This document shows positions 6,072 to 54,614 of a stretch of DNA of 55,668 bases, piece after piece. Origin of the DNA: a virus; IMG/VR virus record IMGVR_UViG_3300025872_000070, positions 1 through 55,668 of that record; one strand, written 5' to 3'. Within the stretch, counting starts at the first letter, position 1; each line of letters begins with the position of its first letter. The notes under the pieces are model-generated. The model was not told the origin of the DNA, searched no databases, and saw nothing but the letters and a program-made list of their open reading frames with translations. Position numbers and translations under genes: made by a program.

Positions 6072-6968
6072 TTAAGAATTTTTAGTATAAACTAATCTTT
6101 TAACTTCCCCATCTTCGTTCAATTGAGTTTCAGATGAAACAGGAACTTCAACTATTTTTTCAACTTCTTTAATAACTTCAACTTCTTTTATCACTTCAAC
6201 AGGTACCTCAACAACTTTTTCTACTTCTTTTATTACTTCAACTTCTTTTATCACTTCAACAGGTACCTCAACAACTTTTTCAACTTCTTTAATAACTTCA
6301 ACTTCTTTTATCACTTCAACAGGTACCTCAACAACTTTTTCAACTTCTTTGATAACTTCAACTTCTTTAATAACTTCCACAACTTTATCGACAGGTACCT
6401 CAACAACTTTTTCAACTTCTTTAATAACTTCTACAGGAACTTCAACAATTTTTTCAACCTCCTTAATAACTTCTAATGGTTCTTGTTGATTTTTAATATT
6501 ATTTCCTCTTTTATCATCATACTTTATGAAAAAGTGTAACGATGTTAAAGAAATTATTGGAAGAAGACCACCTTCTAAAAAAGATAACCACCTTCTTTGG
6601 GAAGATAAATCATCGGACCCTAATGATTCCCATATTGGAAGAGTTAACTCATTCCAAGTTTTGAAGAGTTCGCTATTTACATCGATTTCTTTGAAAGAAA
6701 AATATATGTTACCAATCATTTGTATCAAGGTGACTAACCCAAACATAAACCAAACTCCACCTTTGATTCTATTTGTAACAGCAACAAGAGCGGTCATCGC
6801 AGCGACTTCTATGGCTATAGATAAGTAAATCGCCCAACTAAAAGGGTTAGCTATATCATACCAAGAAACAACGTGAGATATAGATATTATGGCAACCAAT
6901 ATGATTGGTACCAAAAACATTGACCTGTTAGGATTAATTTTAATCCATTCGAATGTATTCTTAATCAC
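6072..6968 (-). CDS. multi-pass membrane protein with long Val-Glu-Lys-Ile repeat tail
   Basis: 298 aa. Residues 1-150 contain about four hydrophobic segments (FLVPIILVAIISISHVV, WAIYLSIAIEVAAMTALVAV, WFMFGLVTLIQMIGNIYF, LLPIISLTSLHFFI). Residues about 165-280 are a tandem array of a 20-residue unit of the type EVEKVVEVPVEVIKEVEVIK. The start is GTG, overlapping the TGA of the upstream gene (GTGA). The tail alternates charge and branched residues and could form an extended or coiled rod. Its place beside the amidase and spanin-like genes suggests a holin or lysis-regulator role, but that is only contextual. Confidence 0.65.
   Translation of the reverse strand: MIKNTFEWIKINPNRSMFLVPIILVAIISISHVVSWYDIANPFSWAIYLSIAIEVAAMTALVAVTNRIKGGVWFMFGLVTLIQMIGNIYFSFKEIDVNSELFKTWNELTLPIWESLGSDDLSSQRRWLSFLEGGLLPIISLTSLHFFIKYDDKRGNNIKNQQEPLEVIKEVEKIVEVPVEVIKEVEKVVEVPVDKVVEVIKEVEVIKEVEKVVEVPVEVIKEVEVIKEVEKVVEVPVEVIKEVEVIKEVEKVVEVPVEVIKEVEVIKEVEKIVEVPVSSETQLNEDGEVKRLVYTKNS
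6141..6480 (-). repeat. tandem 60-bp repeats inside a coding region
   Basis: Blocks starting at 6181, 6241 and 6301 are almost identical over 60 bp (differences cluster in their last 20 bases), with degenerate copies on each side. Each unit encodes 20 residues. The exact period and near-identity suggest recent expansion by slippage or recombination. Confidence 0.85.
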
Positions 6969-7276
6969 TTGGATAGTTCGTTAATCTCTTTATCAATTTC
7001 AGATTGTCTGTTGACATCCAAAATTTTCCTATCTGTAGATTGAATCATTCTTTTCTCACTTTTTAAACCTTCTACTTTGATTTGAAGAATCAAATCCTTA
7101 TTTAATTCTTTGATTATTTCGTTTTGTTTAGTTATTACAAAAGAAAGCGAATCAATTCTTTTTTGTGTTTTTTTAATATATCCGTTGGTATTACACGTCT
7201 TGAAAAACGTTAATATTACAAATATGGTAACAAATCTTAATCCCCACACATCCAAAAAACTTAAAATAGTTTTCAT
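6965..7276 (-). CDS. small membrane-anchored coiled-coil protein, 103 aa
   Basis: One N-terminal hydrophobic segment (LRFVTIFVILTFF, residues 13-25), then a Cys-Asn-Thr turn and a long charged helix to the end (QNEIIKELNKDLILQIKVEG). ATG at 7276; its TGA overlaps the GTG of the next gene. The topology is again i-spanin-like, so it may be a second lysis protein or an accessory to the adjacent membrane protein. A TATTTATT motif lies 32 nt upstream. No recognised family. Confidence 0.6.
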   Translation of the reverse strand: MKTILSFLDVWGLRFVTIFVILTFFKTCNTNGYIKKTQKRIDSLSFVITKQNEIIKELNKDLILQIKVEGLKSEKRMIQSTDRKILDVNRQSEIDKEINELSK

Positions 7277-7308
7277 AGTTTTGTTTTCTAATTGATTATT
7301 CCGTAACT

Positions 7309-7316
7309 AATAAATA
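7309..7316 (-). promoter_or_regulatory. TATTTATT motif, candidate phage promoter
   Basis: TATTTATT on the coding strand in the 53-nt gap between the sigma-factor gene and the 103-aa membrane protein gene, 32 nt before the latter's ATG. Confidence 0.35.
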
Positions 7317-7329
7317 TCAAAAAAATTAA

Positions 7330-8157
7330 TTAAATGTAGTCAAAAAGGGTAGATGATTCATTTCTTAACTTTCTAAGTGCCTTTTCTTTGATTTGTCGTA
7401 CTCGTTCTTTTGTTAAGTTAAAGTCACTTCCAATGTCTTCTAAGGTACGAGGAGGACCCGATATACCAAAATAATCTTCAATAATAACTTTTTCCCGGTC
7501 ATCTAAAATATTTAAAAGTTCAAATATTTTTTTCTTAACCACATCTTGATTGTTGAATACTTCGTCGGGTTGGTCCGCATTTTCATTTTTAACAACATCA
7601 ATCAAAGTGTCTCCATCCTCGTTAATATTCATATCCAAATCAATTATGGAGGGAAGATTAGCAAATTTATCATCTAATTTTTTATCAGATGTTTCAACTT
7701 CTTTTTTTGCTCTATGAAGTTCTTGAACAACATTAACCGGTAGACGAATGGTTCTTGATTGGTCGTTAAGTGATTGTTTGATAGATTGTTTTACCCACCA
7801 AACAGCGTATGAAATAAACCTAAGATTCTTGTTCCAATCAAATGTTTCAATAGCTTTAAGAAGACCACAATTACCCTCAGCAATCAGGTCAGGGAATGGT
7901 AACCCTTGATTTTGATATTGTTTTGCAATAGTAATAACAAACCTTAAATTACCCTCAATCATTTCCCTTTGGATTTTATTTTTTTCCATCAAAGAAAGAT
8001 TTGGTGATTTCATTTTTTCCGCAAGTTCTCGTTCTCGGTCAGCAGTCATAACCTTAATCTTTCGAATATCTTTAAGATAACTTTGTATTTCTTCTTGATT
8101 GATTGGAATTGATGTTTGCTTGTCTTTCATAGTTTTATAGGGATTTAGAGTATTCAT
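7330..8157 (-). CDS. RNA polymerase sigma factor, RpoD/primary-like
   Basis: 275 aa sigma-70 family protein without region 1.1. Region 1.2 is near IQSYLKDIRKIKVMTADRER (residues 24-43). Region 2 runs through NLRFVITIAKQYQNQGLPF, LIAEGNCGLLKAIETFD and FISYAVWWVKQSIKQSL. Region 4.2 is a clear helix-turn-helix (TLEDIGSDFNLTKERVRQIK). It would redirect host RNA polymerase to phage promoters. It resembles the small primary sigma factors of Bacteroidota rather than T4 gp55. ATG at 8157 overlaps the upstream gene by 23 nt; a second ATG at 8130 would remove the overlap. Probably transcribed from the host-like promoter at 8683-8713. Confidence 0.93.
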   Translation of the reverse strand: MNTLNPYKTMKDKQTSIPINQEEIQSYLKDIRKIKVMTADRERELAEKMKSPNLSLMEKNKIQREMIEGNLRFVITIAKQYQNQGLPFPDLIAEGNCGLLKAIETFDWNKNLRFISYAVWWVKQSIKQSLNDQSRTIRLPVNVVQELHRAKKEVETSDKKLDDKFANLPSIIDLDMNINEDGDTLIDVVKNENADQPDEVFNNQDVVKKKIFELLNILDDREKVIIEDYFGISGPPRTLEDIGSDFNLTKERVRQIKEKALRKLRNESSTLFDYI

Positions 8158-48283: not shown

Positions 48284-49657
48284 TTATTGTGTTTTTTGTT
48301 TACGTTTTTCCATAAGGTCTTTAATTCGTTCTCTATTTTTTTCTTCTTGTTTTTCTTCAAGTCCTAAAAATGTAACTGAACTTTCTGTATCAATTTCCAA
48401 CATACTATTATCAAACTTACAATTTTCAAAAACTATACCATCATCACCAATACGTGATTTTGTTATTGCAATTGTCGCTAATTTCATCTCTTTTTGTTGT
48501 AAAGTTTTTGCCACAGATATGATTACGTGTCCAACTTGGGCTTTTTTGATTGAACCACCCATTTGGTCTGTAGTTACAACTTCAGATGAGATTGAACTTC
48601 TATTACCTTGAGTTGCTGTCCAACCGACAATGTCCATTTCGTGACACATAGCTTCAAAAGCTCTCATAACCGAACCTTCACTTTTCCACTCATCACCTAA
48701 ATTTTTATCAGGAACAACACAATCTATATAATCAAGAAGAACCAAATCAATTTTAATACCATCAGCAGTCATTTTACGAATAGAATTCTTGATTTGTAAC
48801 ATAGTCATAGTGTCAGAGGGATATTTTTGTAATATTAACTTATTAGTCATAGTTTCTTTTACCTCTTTCACTTTTTTAAGAACATCATCTTTCTTAATAG
48901 ATAGTTCGTCGGGGTGAATTTTAGTCCACAAAGTTATATGTTTTCTTTGAATAATTTTAGGATTGTCCTCAAAAAATATTTGAAGTACGTTGTATCCTAA
49001 ATTAAATGCATGATTCGCAATTTTAGTTAACATAGTACTTTTACCTACCCCTGTAGGAGCTAAAACAACCCCTATTTCACCTTTTGCTAAACCACCTTTA
49101 AGTAATCTGTCAATTCCTGGTATTCCAATAGGAATTGGATGTCTATAATCTTCGTTTAAAACTTCGTCAAGATTACTAAAAACATCAGATGAGCCTTCCT
49201 CAACAATTCCTACTTGTAGGGCCTCTCTTATTAGTTGTTCGGCTTTATCATAATTTTCGAATTCACCCCCGTCGATTATTTTTTGAACCGATAACATTGC
49301 TTTTTGTAACTCTTGTTGTTTACAAAACTTTTTACTTTTTTCTTGAACAAAATCCATACCCTCAACAGGAGCATTTTTGATTTTACCAAGAGTATCTAAT
49401 ACTATCTTAGATGCTGATTCTTGTTGGAGTTCAGCTTTGGTTATTTGTTCTAAAGTTTCAAAAGATGGTGTGTGTTCGTACTTTTTATAGTACTCTTTAA
49501 CCATTTGAATTATTATTTTGAAGTACTTATTTTCAAAATAATTTGTTTGGATAACATCAATAATGGAGCGGGCAAATTCCTTATCAACAATGATTTGGTT
49601 TAAAAGTTGTAACTGAAAAGTGCTTCCCAAATACTCAAAATTTTTATTCGCCGCCAT
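48284..49657 (-). CDS. 41: replicative DNA helicase, DnaB/gp41-like
   Basis: 457 aa. The N-terminal helical domain spans residues 1-160. The RecA-like motor has Walker [10 protein letters not shown] (200-208), a [13 protein letters not shown] segment, Walker [12 protein letters not shown], and a GWTATQGNR motif with the sensor Gln. It unwinds the fork on the lagging strand and pairs with the primase at 16528-17427. The C-terminal tail is charged. A TATTTATA motif sits 20 nt upstream, in the gap after the 157-aa gene. Confidence 0.93.
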
Positions 49658-51156: not shown

Positions 51157-51783
51157 TTATTTAAATGGTTCTACAATTTTGTTACTTTTTTTCAAATTTT
51201 CATCAACCCAGAGTGGTTGTAGGTTTGTGTAATGACATAATTTATAAATTTCCTTTTCAGTTTTTGCGGAAGATAAAGGTATTATATGGTCAATGTGAAA
51301 CAAATGTCTATTTTCCCAGCTCATACCATCTTTGAATTGTTTTTCTAAATATTCCTTAAGAAATTCTGGTGTACAACCAACGATTTCAAAAGTACGTTTT
51401 GATTTATATTTGATATATCTATTTACTGAATTTCTCATATCTGAAATAATTTTGAACAACATATCTCGTTTTTTTCTTTGTTTGTTATAATTATTCAAAT
51501 AGTTTTTGTTATTTTCGAACCAATTTTTTTTACGTTGTTTTTCTCTTTCGTAATTAGTAATGTAATATTCTTTGAAATACTTTTCGTAGTATTCTGAATT
51601 TTTTTTGTTCCACTCGTCGTTGTATTTTTTAATTTTGTCCTTGTTTTCGAGTTTGTATTTTTTACTTTCTTTTCTTTGACATTCCCTACAATTACTCCTT
51701 AAACCACATTTAACTCTTGATTGTTTGTTAAATTCTGTCAATTCTTTTTCGAGTTTACATTTTGAACAAACTTTTGTTTCCAC
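51157..51783 (-). CDS. HNH homing endonuclease with N-terminal zinc module
   Basis: 208 aa. The N-terminal zinc module is KVCSKCKLEKELTEF ... NCRECQRK. The middle is basic and Tyr/Asn/Lys-rich. The HNH domain is LFHIDHIIPLSSAKTEKEI ... HYTNLQPLWVDENLKKS. It is clearly paralogous to the 17451-18176 protein. The start is GTG at 51783, with TATTTATA only 3 nt upstream. It sits between two complete genes (uvsX and RNase H) and does not interrupt either, typical of free-standing homing genes of T4-like phages. Confidence 0.88.
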   Translation of the reverse strand: METKVCSKCKLEKELTEFNKQSRVKCGLRSNCRECQRKESKKYKLENKDKIKKYNDEWNKKNSEYYEKYFKEYYITNYEREKQRKKNWFENNKNYLNNYNKQRKKRDMLFKIISDMRNSVNRYIKYKSKRTFEIVGCTPEFLKEYLEKQFKDGMSWENRHLFHIDHIIPLSSAKTEKEIYKLCHYTNLQPLWVDENLKKSNKIVEPFK

Positions 51784-51786
51784 TAC

Positions 51787-51794
51787 TATAAATA
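51787..51794 (-). promoter_or_regulatory. TATTTATA motif, candidate promoter of an HNH gene
   Basis: TATTTATA on the leftward strand, 3 nt before the GTG start of the HNH gene and only 3 nt from the end of uvsX. Confidence 0.45.
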
Positions 51795-52803: not shown

Positions 52804-53028
52804 TTATCTGATATTATATTTGTAGAACTCTTCGAAAGTTTCCAATTTGTCTTTTGCATTTCCAATCTTTTCTACTAATTTATCCATCTCTTCGATGTGT
52901 TGGGGATGTTCTCCAATACCGACAGGGGAGTTAAAATAAACCATAAGTGATGATTCGGCTTCTAACATTTGACTACGATACTTTGTTACCAAAGCGTCAA
53001 ACATTTTTTCTTTAATTCTGTTTTCCAT
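52804..53028 (-). CDS. small helical protein, 74 aa, next to uvsX
   Basis: Almost fully helical and charged: MENRIKEKMFDALVTKYRSQ, a short loop (SPVGIGEHPQH), then a second helix ending EEFYKYNIR. A helical hairpin of this size between gp32 and uvsX might be an accessory (mediator-like) protein, but I do not recognise a family and UvsY-like features are not evident. It ends 2 nt before uvsX. Confidence 0.7.
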   Translation of the reverse strand: MENRIKEKMFDALVTKYRSQMLEAESSLMVYFNSPVGIGEHPQHIEEMDKLVEKIGNAKDKLETFEEFYKYNIR

Positions 53029-53046
53029 TATTTTAAGTATAAGAAA

Positions 53047-53078
53047 GCATGGACACTTTGTCTATGCTATTGTCCATA
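53047..53078 (-). terminator. possible terminator after the HNH gene
   Basis: On the leftward transcript, GTATGGACA pairs with TGTCCATGC (9 bp, one G-U) around a loop, followed by TTTCTTATACTT. A shorter alternative stem (53046-53068) also exists. It lies in the 55-nt gap between the HNH gene and the 74-aa gene; the U-run is weak, so termination would be partial. Confidence 0.4.
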
Positions 53079-53083
53079 CAATT

Positions 53084-53629
53084 TTAGTTTTTATATTTTT
53101 TAATTATTTCTTCTATAAATTCTATGTGTTTTTCTTTTGTATCAAGTAGTACACCTTCTAGATTTGAGTACTTTTTAATCTCAGGTTTATAAATTAAAAA
53201 TCTATGAATCATATTATGATTTCTTATATTCAATTCTATAACGTCCAACCAATCTTCTTGTGAGTAAGACCAATGATGTAGATGTAACCCCTTTTTTTTA
53301 GTTAAAAAAATTTCAGTGTATTTAGATGCTAAGTATTTTTCAGGATATTTTTGTCTATACTTTTTTATAGTTTCCCTTTTTGACTCAGTGGTTGGTCTCC
53401 ATCTATTTTGGTAATTCAATCTATAATAACGTTTTCTGTTTCGTTCACGTTCTTTTTCCAACCATTTTTTGTCTTGCCTCAATAAGTCTTCTCTTTTTTT
53501 GACATCTATCTTAGTACATTTTTTACACTTGTTGAGATGTCCATCCAACATAGATTTATGTTTGTAAAATTCATCCAAACATTTAAATTCTTGACATTTG
53601 AAACATTTTTTCAAAGTATTTTCCGCCAT
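53084..53629 (-). CDS. HNH-type homing endonuclease of a second subclass, 181 aa
   Basis: The N-terminal zinc module (KKCFKCQEFKCLDEF ... KCKKCTK) is like those of the other two HNH proteins here, then a basic helical linker. The catalytic C-terminus differs: LHLHHWSYSQEDWLDVIEL followed by RNHNMIHRFLIY, a His-His ... Asn ... His arrangement of another HNH subfamily. It lies between gp32 and the 74-aa gene. Its start codon is in one arm of a 14-bp inverted repeat whose loop contains TATTTATA, suggesting late-only translation. Confidence 0.8.
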   Translation of the reverse strand: MAENTLKKCFKCQEFKCLDEFYKHKSMLDGHLNKCKKCTKIDVKKREDLLRQDKKWLEKERERNRKRYYRLNYQNRWRPTTESKRETIKKYRQKYPEKYLASKYTEIFLTKKKGLHLHHWSYSQEDWLDVIELNIRNHNMIHRFLIYKPEIKKYSNLEGVLLDTKEKHIEFIEEIIKKYKN

Positions 53630-53672
53630 TGCAACTATTTAACTTATAAATATATTAAAATGGCGGAAAATA
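53617..53672 (-). promoter_or_regulatory. start-codon-sequestering hairpin with internal promoter motif
   Basis: Arms TATTTTCCGCCATT (53617-53630) and AATGGCGGAAAATA (53659-53672) are perfect 14-bp complements. In leftward read-through mRNA from gp32, the ATG and first codons of the HNH gene (start at 53629) would be locked in this stem. TATTTATA (53645-53652) lies in the 28-nt loop; a transcript starting just downstream of it would lack the upstream arm and leave the ATG free. Confidence 0.7.
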
Positions 53673-53678
53673 ATTTTA

Positions 53679-53702
53679 ATTTACCTTTTTAAAAAGGTAA
53701 AT
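53679..53702. other. 24-nt perfect palindrome over the gp32 stop codon
   Basis: The sequence from 53679 to 53702 (core TTACCTTTTTAAAAAGGTAA) is fully self-complementary and includes the gp32 stop. No clear U-tract follows on the leftward strand. It could slow exonucleases or cause weak termination after gp32. Confidence 0.6.
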
Positions 53703-54531
53703 CATTATCAGGTTCATCATTATCTTGGGGGTCAGCCACTTTAGAACCTCCTATAGTTGTTACAGATTCAGTAGTACTTGCAAAAACGTATTTTCCAGCA
53801 TCTGAGTCCCAACGTGGAGTTTCTCCTCGTGCAATTGCTTCAAGGTATTCCTCAGGTTTTTTTGAATAAACATCCGCCCAAGTCATAGTATCTTCAACCC
53901 AAGATTTTGAAGTTTCTTTATCTTTATGAACTGGTGATGGGTCATCATACATTACGGTCTGGATTACCGTATAGTACGCTCCTTTTGGAGTTTTAGCTTT
54001 AGTGAGTTCAAGAATAATATCACGTCCTGTTTCTGCATCGGTGATATCACCCTTTTGTCTCCATATTGGAATAATTTTATCTAAGATACCTTCGTTTTTA
54101 TAGTTGTGTTTAAACCTCCAAAACTTAGGTCCATCTTGTTCATTGTCTCGGTCAATAACTTTTACAATATAAAATTTACGTGGTTTATATTGTTTTGCCA
54201 GTTCTTTATCTGACTCTTTACCAGTAGACATAAGTTCTTCATAAACTTCAGATAATGGTGAACGTTGATTATCGTTCTTACCTGGGTCATAAAACTTTTG
54301 CCATTTACCATCCACTTGTACTTCGTGAAACCAAACTTCTTTGAATGGCGAACTTCCATCTGGAGTAGGAAGAATTCGTAATCTTCGTTGAGCTTGTTTT
54401 TCACTTTCTTTGAGGATTGCCGCAAAGTATTTTTTCATTCTGTCTTCTTGAGACATTTTGTAAGGTGATGAAGCACCTTGTTTCGATTGTTCGTACTGCG
54501 AAAGTACTGCGTCTAAGGAATTTGTCGCCAT
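53689..54531 (-). CDS. 32: single-stranded DNA-binding protein, T4 gp32-like
   Basis: 280 aa. The N-terminal region (MATNSLDAVLSQYEQSKQGA) would mediate cooperative binding. The OB-fold core has RRLRILPTPDGSSPFKEVWF, FYIVKVIDRD and PKFWRFKHNYKNEGILDKI. The C-terminus is acidic and ends DNDEPDNDLPF, the hallmark tail of phage SSBs used to recruit partners. The zinc site of T4 gp32 is not evident. Driven by a TTG-N20-TATATTTG promoter, with a terminator just upstream, so it heads the replication operon. Confidence 0.9.
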   Translation of the reverse strand: MATNSLDAVLSQYEQSKQGASSPYKMSQEDRMKKYFAAILKESEKQAQRRLRILPTPDGSSPFKEVWFHEVQVDGKWQKFYDPGKNDNQRSPLSEVYEELMSTGKESDKELAKQYKPRKFYIVKVIDRDNEQDGPKFWRFKHNYKNEGILDKIIPIWRQKGDITDAETGRDIILELTKAKTPKGAYYTVIQTVMYDDPSPVHKDKETSKSWVEDTMTWADVYSKKPEEYLEAIARGETPRWDSDAGKYVFASTTESVTTIGGSKVADPQDNDEPDNDLPF

Positions 54532-54559
54532 ATTATATATTTTTAGTTAATTAATAAAA

Positions 54560-54590
54560 CAAATATAAAACTATGATAGGATATAGTCAA
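54560..54590 (-). promoter_or_regulatory. Bacteroidota-type promoter TTG-N20-TATATTTG ahead of gp32
   Basis: On the leftward strand TTG (54588-54590), then 20 nt, then TATATTTG (54560-54567), 28 nt before the gp32 ATG. It matches the host-type consensus TTG ... TANNTTTG and has the same spacing as the copy at 8683-8713. Confidence 0.72.
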
Positions 54591-54614
54591 ATAAAAAAGG
54601 GTCTTTTCAGACCC
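54591..54614 (-). terminator. rho-independent terminator upstream of gp32
   Basis: Leftward strand: GGGTCT-GAAA-AGACCC followed by TTTTTTAT. A compact GC-rich stem with a U-run directly after the 54621-55268 gene; it isolates that transcript from the gp32 operon. Confidence 0.88.

Follow-up and report, generated by a model that had tools for sequence, protein, structure and literature searches.

RNA hairpins control the synthesis of several phage endonucleases, having been described for I-TevI, I-TevII, I-TevIII and SegB of phage T4 and for MobE of the Aeromonas phage Aeh1 (PMC2988022). For I-TevI, encoded in the T4 td intron, and also for I-TevII and I-TevIII, a hairpin in read-through RNA hides the translation start and transcripts from the promoter lack the upstream strand of the stem; I-TevI additionally has, at its promoter, an operator that looks like its homing site (PMC2988022). 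In two other T4 genes, e (lysozyme) and soc, a late promoter lies inside an inhibitory stem whose upstream strand is lost in late RNA (PMC3014915).

We compared these systems with a locus in a virus record of 55,668 bases (the window), in which an HNH endonuclease gene, HNH1, follows a gp32-like gene (Table 1). As in the T4-type systems, HNH1 runs in the same direction within the upstream gp32 unit and its translation start is covered by a predicted stem, and as with I-TevI a copy of a putative target sequence, here the gp32 end, lies at the promoter motif. I-TevI, however, is a GIY-YIG enzyme in a group I intron with a hidden Shine-Dalgarno sequence and the T4 late promoter TATAAATA, whereas HNH1 is a free-standing HNH gene after gp32 in which the start codon is hidden and the sense strand reads TATTTAT (PMC2988022 for I-TevI). 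MobE, itself an HNH enzyme, and SegB share with HNH1 the free-standing gene, the hairpin over the translation start and a late promoter, which at HNH1 is a putative one, but both hide the ribosome-binding site, and MobE lies between nrdA and nrdB (PMC2988022). T4 SegG is likewise free-standing, adjoins gene 32 and targets it; it differs as a GIY-YIG enzyme located between genes 59 and 32, with the gene 32 promoters inside, and hairpin control is not reported for SegG in the available part of that source. Genes e and soc differ from HNH1 as native lysis or virion genes that are not mobile. At HNH1, TATAAATA is absent in the gene direction, as is a Shine-Dalgarno sequence in the stem. HNH1 would work like the T4 systems without belonging among T4 promoters, because its sense word is TATTTATA, the virion-gene word of this lineage. 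The principle is known from T4; the differences lie in the promoter word, the paired start codon, the free-standing HNH gene after gp32 and the repeatedly re-invented stem. A first-pass annotation of the window had suggested that a phage of a different host lineage evolved the same logic, and this agrees with what we found: hairpin sequences and promoter word differ from those of T4. To be corrected there is that the arms and the gene form one inserted cassette.

Table 1. Features at the gp32-HNH1 locus (positions in the window)
Feature	Position	Strand	Basis or remark
HNH1, putative 181-aa HNH (beta-beta-alpha metal) endonuclease, N-terminal CxxC zinc motif	53084..53629	minus	PHROG, invariant residues, predicted fold
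Downstream arm AATGGCGGAAAATA, ATG and first codons inside	53617..53630	minus	inverted repeat, fold
28-nt loop TTAATATATTTATAAGTTAAATAGTTGC	53631..53658	minus	between both arms
TATTTATA, late-type promoter motif in loop	53645..53652	minus (coding)	sense orientation
Upstream arm TATTTTCCGCCATT	53659..53672	minus	perfect 14-bp inverted repeat, fold; only in read-through RNA
CGCCATTTTAA, second copy of gp32 end (CCNTTYTAA), possible homing-site-like operator	53655..53665	minus	just upstream of loop motif
Second palindrome TTTACCTTTTTAAAAAGGTAAA	53680..53701	minus	half gp32 end (LPF stop), half insert
Inserted cassette (leader, hairpin, HNH1), ~599 nt, directly after gp32 stop codon	53090..53688	minus	absent in L002
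gp32-like single-stranded DNA-binding protein gene, upstream unit	53689..54531	minus	Pfam gp32, 4e-11
gp32 promoter TTTG-N20-TATATTTG (Bacteroidota -33/-7 type)	54560..54591	minus	without TATTTAT
Native terminator-like hairpin of gp32 unit	53047..53079	minus	now downstream of HNH1

HNH1 matches a phage endonuclease family in PHROG (E 2.5e-9) and also endonuclease VII-like proteins, while searches of Pfam and, by sequence, of the PDB returned no match. H118, H119, H138, H142 and the four N-terminal cysteines are invariant among 15 homologues, and an AlphaFold2 model (mean pLDDT 87.5) places a strand-strand-helix unit at residues 115-142 in the HNH layout. A fold search of the PDB gave weak matches, of which the best local one was the beta-beta-alpha-Me enzyme Hpy99I. 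HNH1 is a putative free-standing endonuclease of the homing type, with presumed homing activity. A second HNH-like gene lies after uvsX (51157-51783, minus), with a GTG start a few nucleotides behind TATTTATA (51787-51794) and no clear hairpin.

The replication, nucleotide-metabolism and baseplate genes of the window match phage families, and its gp32 is of the T4 type. A related 272-kb contig encodes a capsid protein (gp23 family) whose nearest matches, at ~41-44% identity, are from an uncultured phage, a Microcystis phage and the Baltic Flavobacterium phage immuto. The host of the window phage is probably a member of the Bacteroidota, since promoters of the form TTTG-N20-TAnnTTTG are present and homologues of the endonuclease occur in Christiangramia and Tenacibaculum MAGs.

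The locus carries gp32, HNH1 on the same strand, a 74-aa gene and a UvsX-like gene in this order. An empty site is found in the relative L002, which is 97.9% identical to the window over 1980 nt up to the gp32 stop codon and then continues with native sequence; gp32 loci without HNH1 number 77. Since leader, hairpin and HNH1 all lie within the ~599-nt insertion that L002 lacks, gene and hairpin arrived together. Nine of the 42 gp32-side differences between the window and L002 fall within the last 35 nt before the insertion (53689-53723; binomial P 5e-6 for nine in 60 nt), a clustering expected from co-conversion but also from a gp32 tail that evolves fast. L002 carries a different inserted gene of ~640 nt (about 6911-7548), flanked by the native terminator and the 74-aa gene. 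In the relatives L083-L088 there is an overlap between HNH1 and the start of uvsX, and no native terminator remains behind gp32; uvsX would now depend on RNA through HNH1.

A profile search yielded at least 80 HNH1 homologues, most of which, among the matches listed, directly follow a gene with LPF-stop as its last codons, as in gp32 and other SSB-like proteins. Members of this one HNH family stand directly after such genes in many unrelated phages (L090, L262-L316 and others), and insertion seems to target the codons of the SSB tail. A DNA search of phage records gave only a 76-base match, inside the gp32 stretch of the query, and a literature search for SSB-adjacent homing endonucleases in Bacteroidetes phages found none. 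Of 64 leaders, 46 have the gp32-end copy CCNTTYTAA beside the loop motif, and the copy is absent from all 77 gp32 ends that lack HNH1; by analogy with I-TevI this suggests an operator acting as a second control layer. Alongside this second direct copy the leaders (in the window, 53655-53701) hold an inverted copy (AANGG) of the gp32 end, and the two may be an operator, a terminator or a trace of insertion.

The hairpin reported in the first-pass annotation, a perfect 14-bp inverted repeat with the ATG in its downstream arm and a promoter motif in a 28-nt loop, proved exact when the minus strand was read again; the ATG occupies 53629..53627, and with mismatches allowed the repeat reaches 21 nt at 90%. 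Folding of the leader, proposed there as a check, bore the structure out: the 101-nt RNA from 53700 to 53600 folded at -30.4 kcal/mol, whereas 200 dinucleotide shuffles gave -11.8 +/- 2.96 (z -6.28, no shuffle as good), and the 56-nt element by itself at -22.7. In a duplex measure the HNH1 hairpin was stronger than that of each of 185 other loop-motif genes in the window and three related phages, the control sets here and below being mechanical ORF calls on four sequences. An exact search with the upstream arm alone (14-mer) gave, among the matches listed, the kind expected by chance and was set aside, a search with the whole-hairpin pattern recovered unrelated matches and the clade already known and nothing else, and Rfam has no family in 53000-54600. 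The hairpin is not a chance structure. That it hides the translation start holds for the start codon, which is itself paired, but not for a ribosome-binding site, as no GGAG-like (Shine-Dalgarno) sequence lies upstream of the HNH1 ATG. The predicted openness of the start region was 0.21 in read-through RNA versus 0.62 in RNA started in the loop, compared with 46% and 68% for 180 comparison genes in the same model, in which the start region of L085-L088 was fairly open (0.44-0.48).

Comparison of the arms in related phages had been proposed as a further check, with the switch to be doubted if the arms failed to co-vary while the gene was kept. The arms co-vary strongly. In L083-L088, which are 67-71% identical and also follow gp32, the upstream arm is ACATTTTCCTACC or ATATTTCCCTACC and the start region ATGGAGGAAAATGT or ATGGAGGGAAATGT, and relative to each other or to the window three positions have changed on both sides with the stem kept: C-G to A-U at +5 (codon 2), A-U to G-C at +13 and, in L088, A-U to G-C at +8. 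The arms of a second group (L243-L259) are located immediately before the ATG, with letters unrelated to these (for example AATCTTTCTAG/CTAGAAAGATT, AATATTTCCAC/GTGGAAATATT and AACTTTGTCATGTATT/AATACATGACAAAGTT). Alignment A3 has 90.8% of its cells paired, and both partners have changed in 6 of its 10 pairs, with 22 double-changed cells versus 6.8 +/- 2.1 in shuffles (0/500) and a covariation score of 0.502 versus 0.183; sliding the partner by one column lowered pairing to 54-56% (at most 55.5% in the slid versions). Free of any alignment, the upstream regions of 16 gp32-type loci paired with their cognate start regions at -21.4 kcal/mol versus -11.7 +/- 1.07 for permuted partners (0/20000), and 120 other loop-motif genes used as controls had no cognate pairing effect. 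A stem of at least 9 bp with the promoter word in its loop was present in 10 of 16 HNH1 loci and none of 227 comparison genes. Only a weak stem was found in L260.

The loop motif is not peculiar to HNH1. TATTTAT lies in the loop or overlaps its edge in all gp32-type HNH1 leaders but one (L250), and upstream of genes generally it favours the sense orientation (sense:antisense 12:0, 103:36, 54:16 and 17:5 in the window and three related contigs), starting mostly 9-26 nt before the ATG. Since it precedes about 48% of genes that follow a gap versus 5% of tightly packed operon-internal genes, it fits a promoter better than a ribosome-binding element. The motif is found before 21 of 29 virion-gene homologues (portal, protease, terminase, sheath, tube and others) versus 3 of 29 replication genes (P 2.5e-6), although, being AT-rich, it could partly reflect leader composition. 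In the cultured phage immuto it stands before the terminase, portal, sheath, tube, tape measure and hub genes. The three replication genes that bear it are all dnaB-like, and the dnaB-like helicase gene has it in three of four phages compared (window 48284-49657 and homologues in G001 and G002), as the one replication gene with a late-type motif upstream. The promoter reading of the first-pass annotation is supported by the sense orientation of the motif and its place before virion genes, but the motif differs from that of T4: because TATTTATA is the reverse complement of TATAAATA, it is a lineage-specific word and not a T4 late promoter in the gene direction. Reading TATAAATA on the plus strand as an antisense T4-type promoter was rejected because the strand bias of the motif upstream of genes runs the opposite way. 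A literature search for the late promoter of Flavobacterium T4-like phages found nothing.

The gp32 unit has a different kind of promoter (Table 1). In relatives a conserved TTGAC..TTATACTT element occupies the same place, and the gp32 upstream regions of ~78 relatives are without TATTTAT, with one distal exception. The read-through and loop-started RNAs would therefore come from different promoter classes, that of gp32 being of a putative early or middle class judged by its motif. TTTGACA..GGCTGACACTTATACTT, conserved before gp32 in L002-L081, is a candidate early or middle promoter of the lineage.

Collectively, the locus is probably a switch in which the hairpin blocks HNH1 in read-through RNA and a loop promoter of the virion-gene type relieves the block. 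HNH1 belongs to a mobile cassette that entered immediately behind the gp32 stop codon. Read-through RNA from the gp32 promoter would contain both arms and fold, burying the HNH1 start codon so that no endonuclease is made early. RNA started at the loop promoter, downstream of the upstream arm, would be unable to form the hairpin and would be translated. The start in the loop, the late timing and the translational block are what we infer from the arrangement of the sequence.

Other explanations were weighed against this switch. The hairpin might block translation while the loop motif is no promoter, with relief by RNA processing, through cleavage of the AU-rich loop, or by a helicase or other protein; a 28-nt AU-rich loop is a plausible cleavage target, and the mRNAs of T4 segB and segG and of Aeh1 mobE are processed (PMC2988022). 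This is unlikely, as the loop motif is the strand-specific word that precedes virion genes after intergenic gaps, and in homologues outside the T4-like phages this position is taken by another promoter word, TAnnTTTG. The inverted repeat might instead be an operator in the DNA, bound by the endonuclease or by some other dimeric regulator, in the way that I-TevI represses itself via an operator over its own promoter (PMC2988022), and a gp32-end copy does adjoin the motif. We consider this quite improbable for the arms, which differ completely between clades yet stay complementary, G-U pairs and a bulge included, because a site read in the DNA would have its sequence conserved; in every case, moreover, the downstream arm goes with the start codon. 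An operator suits the CCNTTYTAA copies better than the arms, and operator and hairpin can both be present.

A stable stem right behind a gene also invites comparison with an intrinsic terminator of the gp32 transcript, but the 28-nt loop, the lack of a U-run after the stem, the extension of the stem into coding sequence and the separate native terminator-like hairpin kept after HNH1 make this very improbable indeed. Short repeats are common in an AT-rich genome such as this, and chance pairing might be invoked; the z of -6.3, the covariation, the cognate-specific pairing and the 0/227 controls at 9 bp refute it, leaving it a negligible probability. The switch with a loop promoter is the reading we carry forward.

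The strongest hairpin among the comparison genes (-19.5) belongs to a GIY-YIG endonuclease gene, AACCTCCCA-GATATTTATTAAATAAA-TGGGAGGTT. Five of six GIY-YIG genes in related phages, a small set (n=6), have TATTTAT before the start, and in three of the six the start codon lies in or beside a stem of at least 8 bp with the promoter word in the loop (L355, L357 and L358, in G001, G003 and G004). At 8 bp this layout is found in 10 of 16 HNH1 loci and 3 of 227 comparison genes, one of the latter being a GIY-YIG gene; at 9 bp or more 2 of the 6 GIY-YIG genes retain it. Since 3 of 6 GIY-YIG genes have it versus 3 of 227 comparison genes, two unrelated nuclease families have the same layout.

HNH1 homologues in phages that are not T4-like have the Bacteroidota -7 word TAnnTTTG instead of TATTTAT, and a strong hairpin with the motif in its loop is present in 4 of 56. 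A minority combine a stem with TAnnTTTG, placed in the loop in L271, L279 and L090 and within the arm in L274 and L311 (similarly in L266), ATCTTTGTTGT there pairing with ACAACAAAGAT of codons 2-6. In others it lies 12 nt before the ATG and would give a nearly leaderless RNA. Pairing in this group is weaker and still cognate-specific. The I-TevI-style switch proposed in the first-pass annotation is supported by the co-varying arms, the virion-gene word in the loop and the different gp32 promoter, but does not extend to every carrier, as some, especially in phages that are not T4-like, are without the hairpin. We offer only tentatively, at somewhat less than even expectation, that a hidden start codon with a loop promoter is a general and repeatedly re-invented rule for HNH and GIY-YIG endonuclease genes of Bacteroidota T4-like phages, with any promoter word, TATTTAT or the host-type TAnnTTTG, being usable and the HNH1 cassette adding a homing-site copy as operator. 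The choice of word would not matter, since a transcript begun at the promoter necessarily starts beyond the upstream arm and lacks it.

From the T4 examples alone, hairpin control of endonucleases could be a peculiarity of a few T-even-type phages. Here the hairpin letters are unrelated, the host lineage and the promoter word are different and two nuclease families are involved, all of which points to the layout itself being under selection, and why a mobile endonuclease must be silent early is now testable by comparison and with reporters. The locus also provides TATTTAT as a candidate late promoter word for a large and mostly uncultured phage group, and a putative family of mobile cassettes that insert at the ends of genes for single-stranded DNA-binding proteins.
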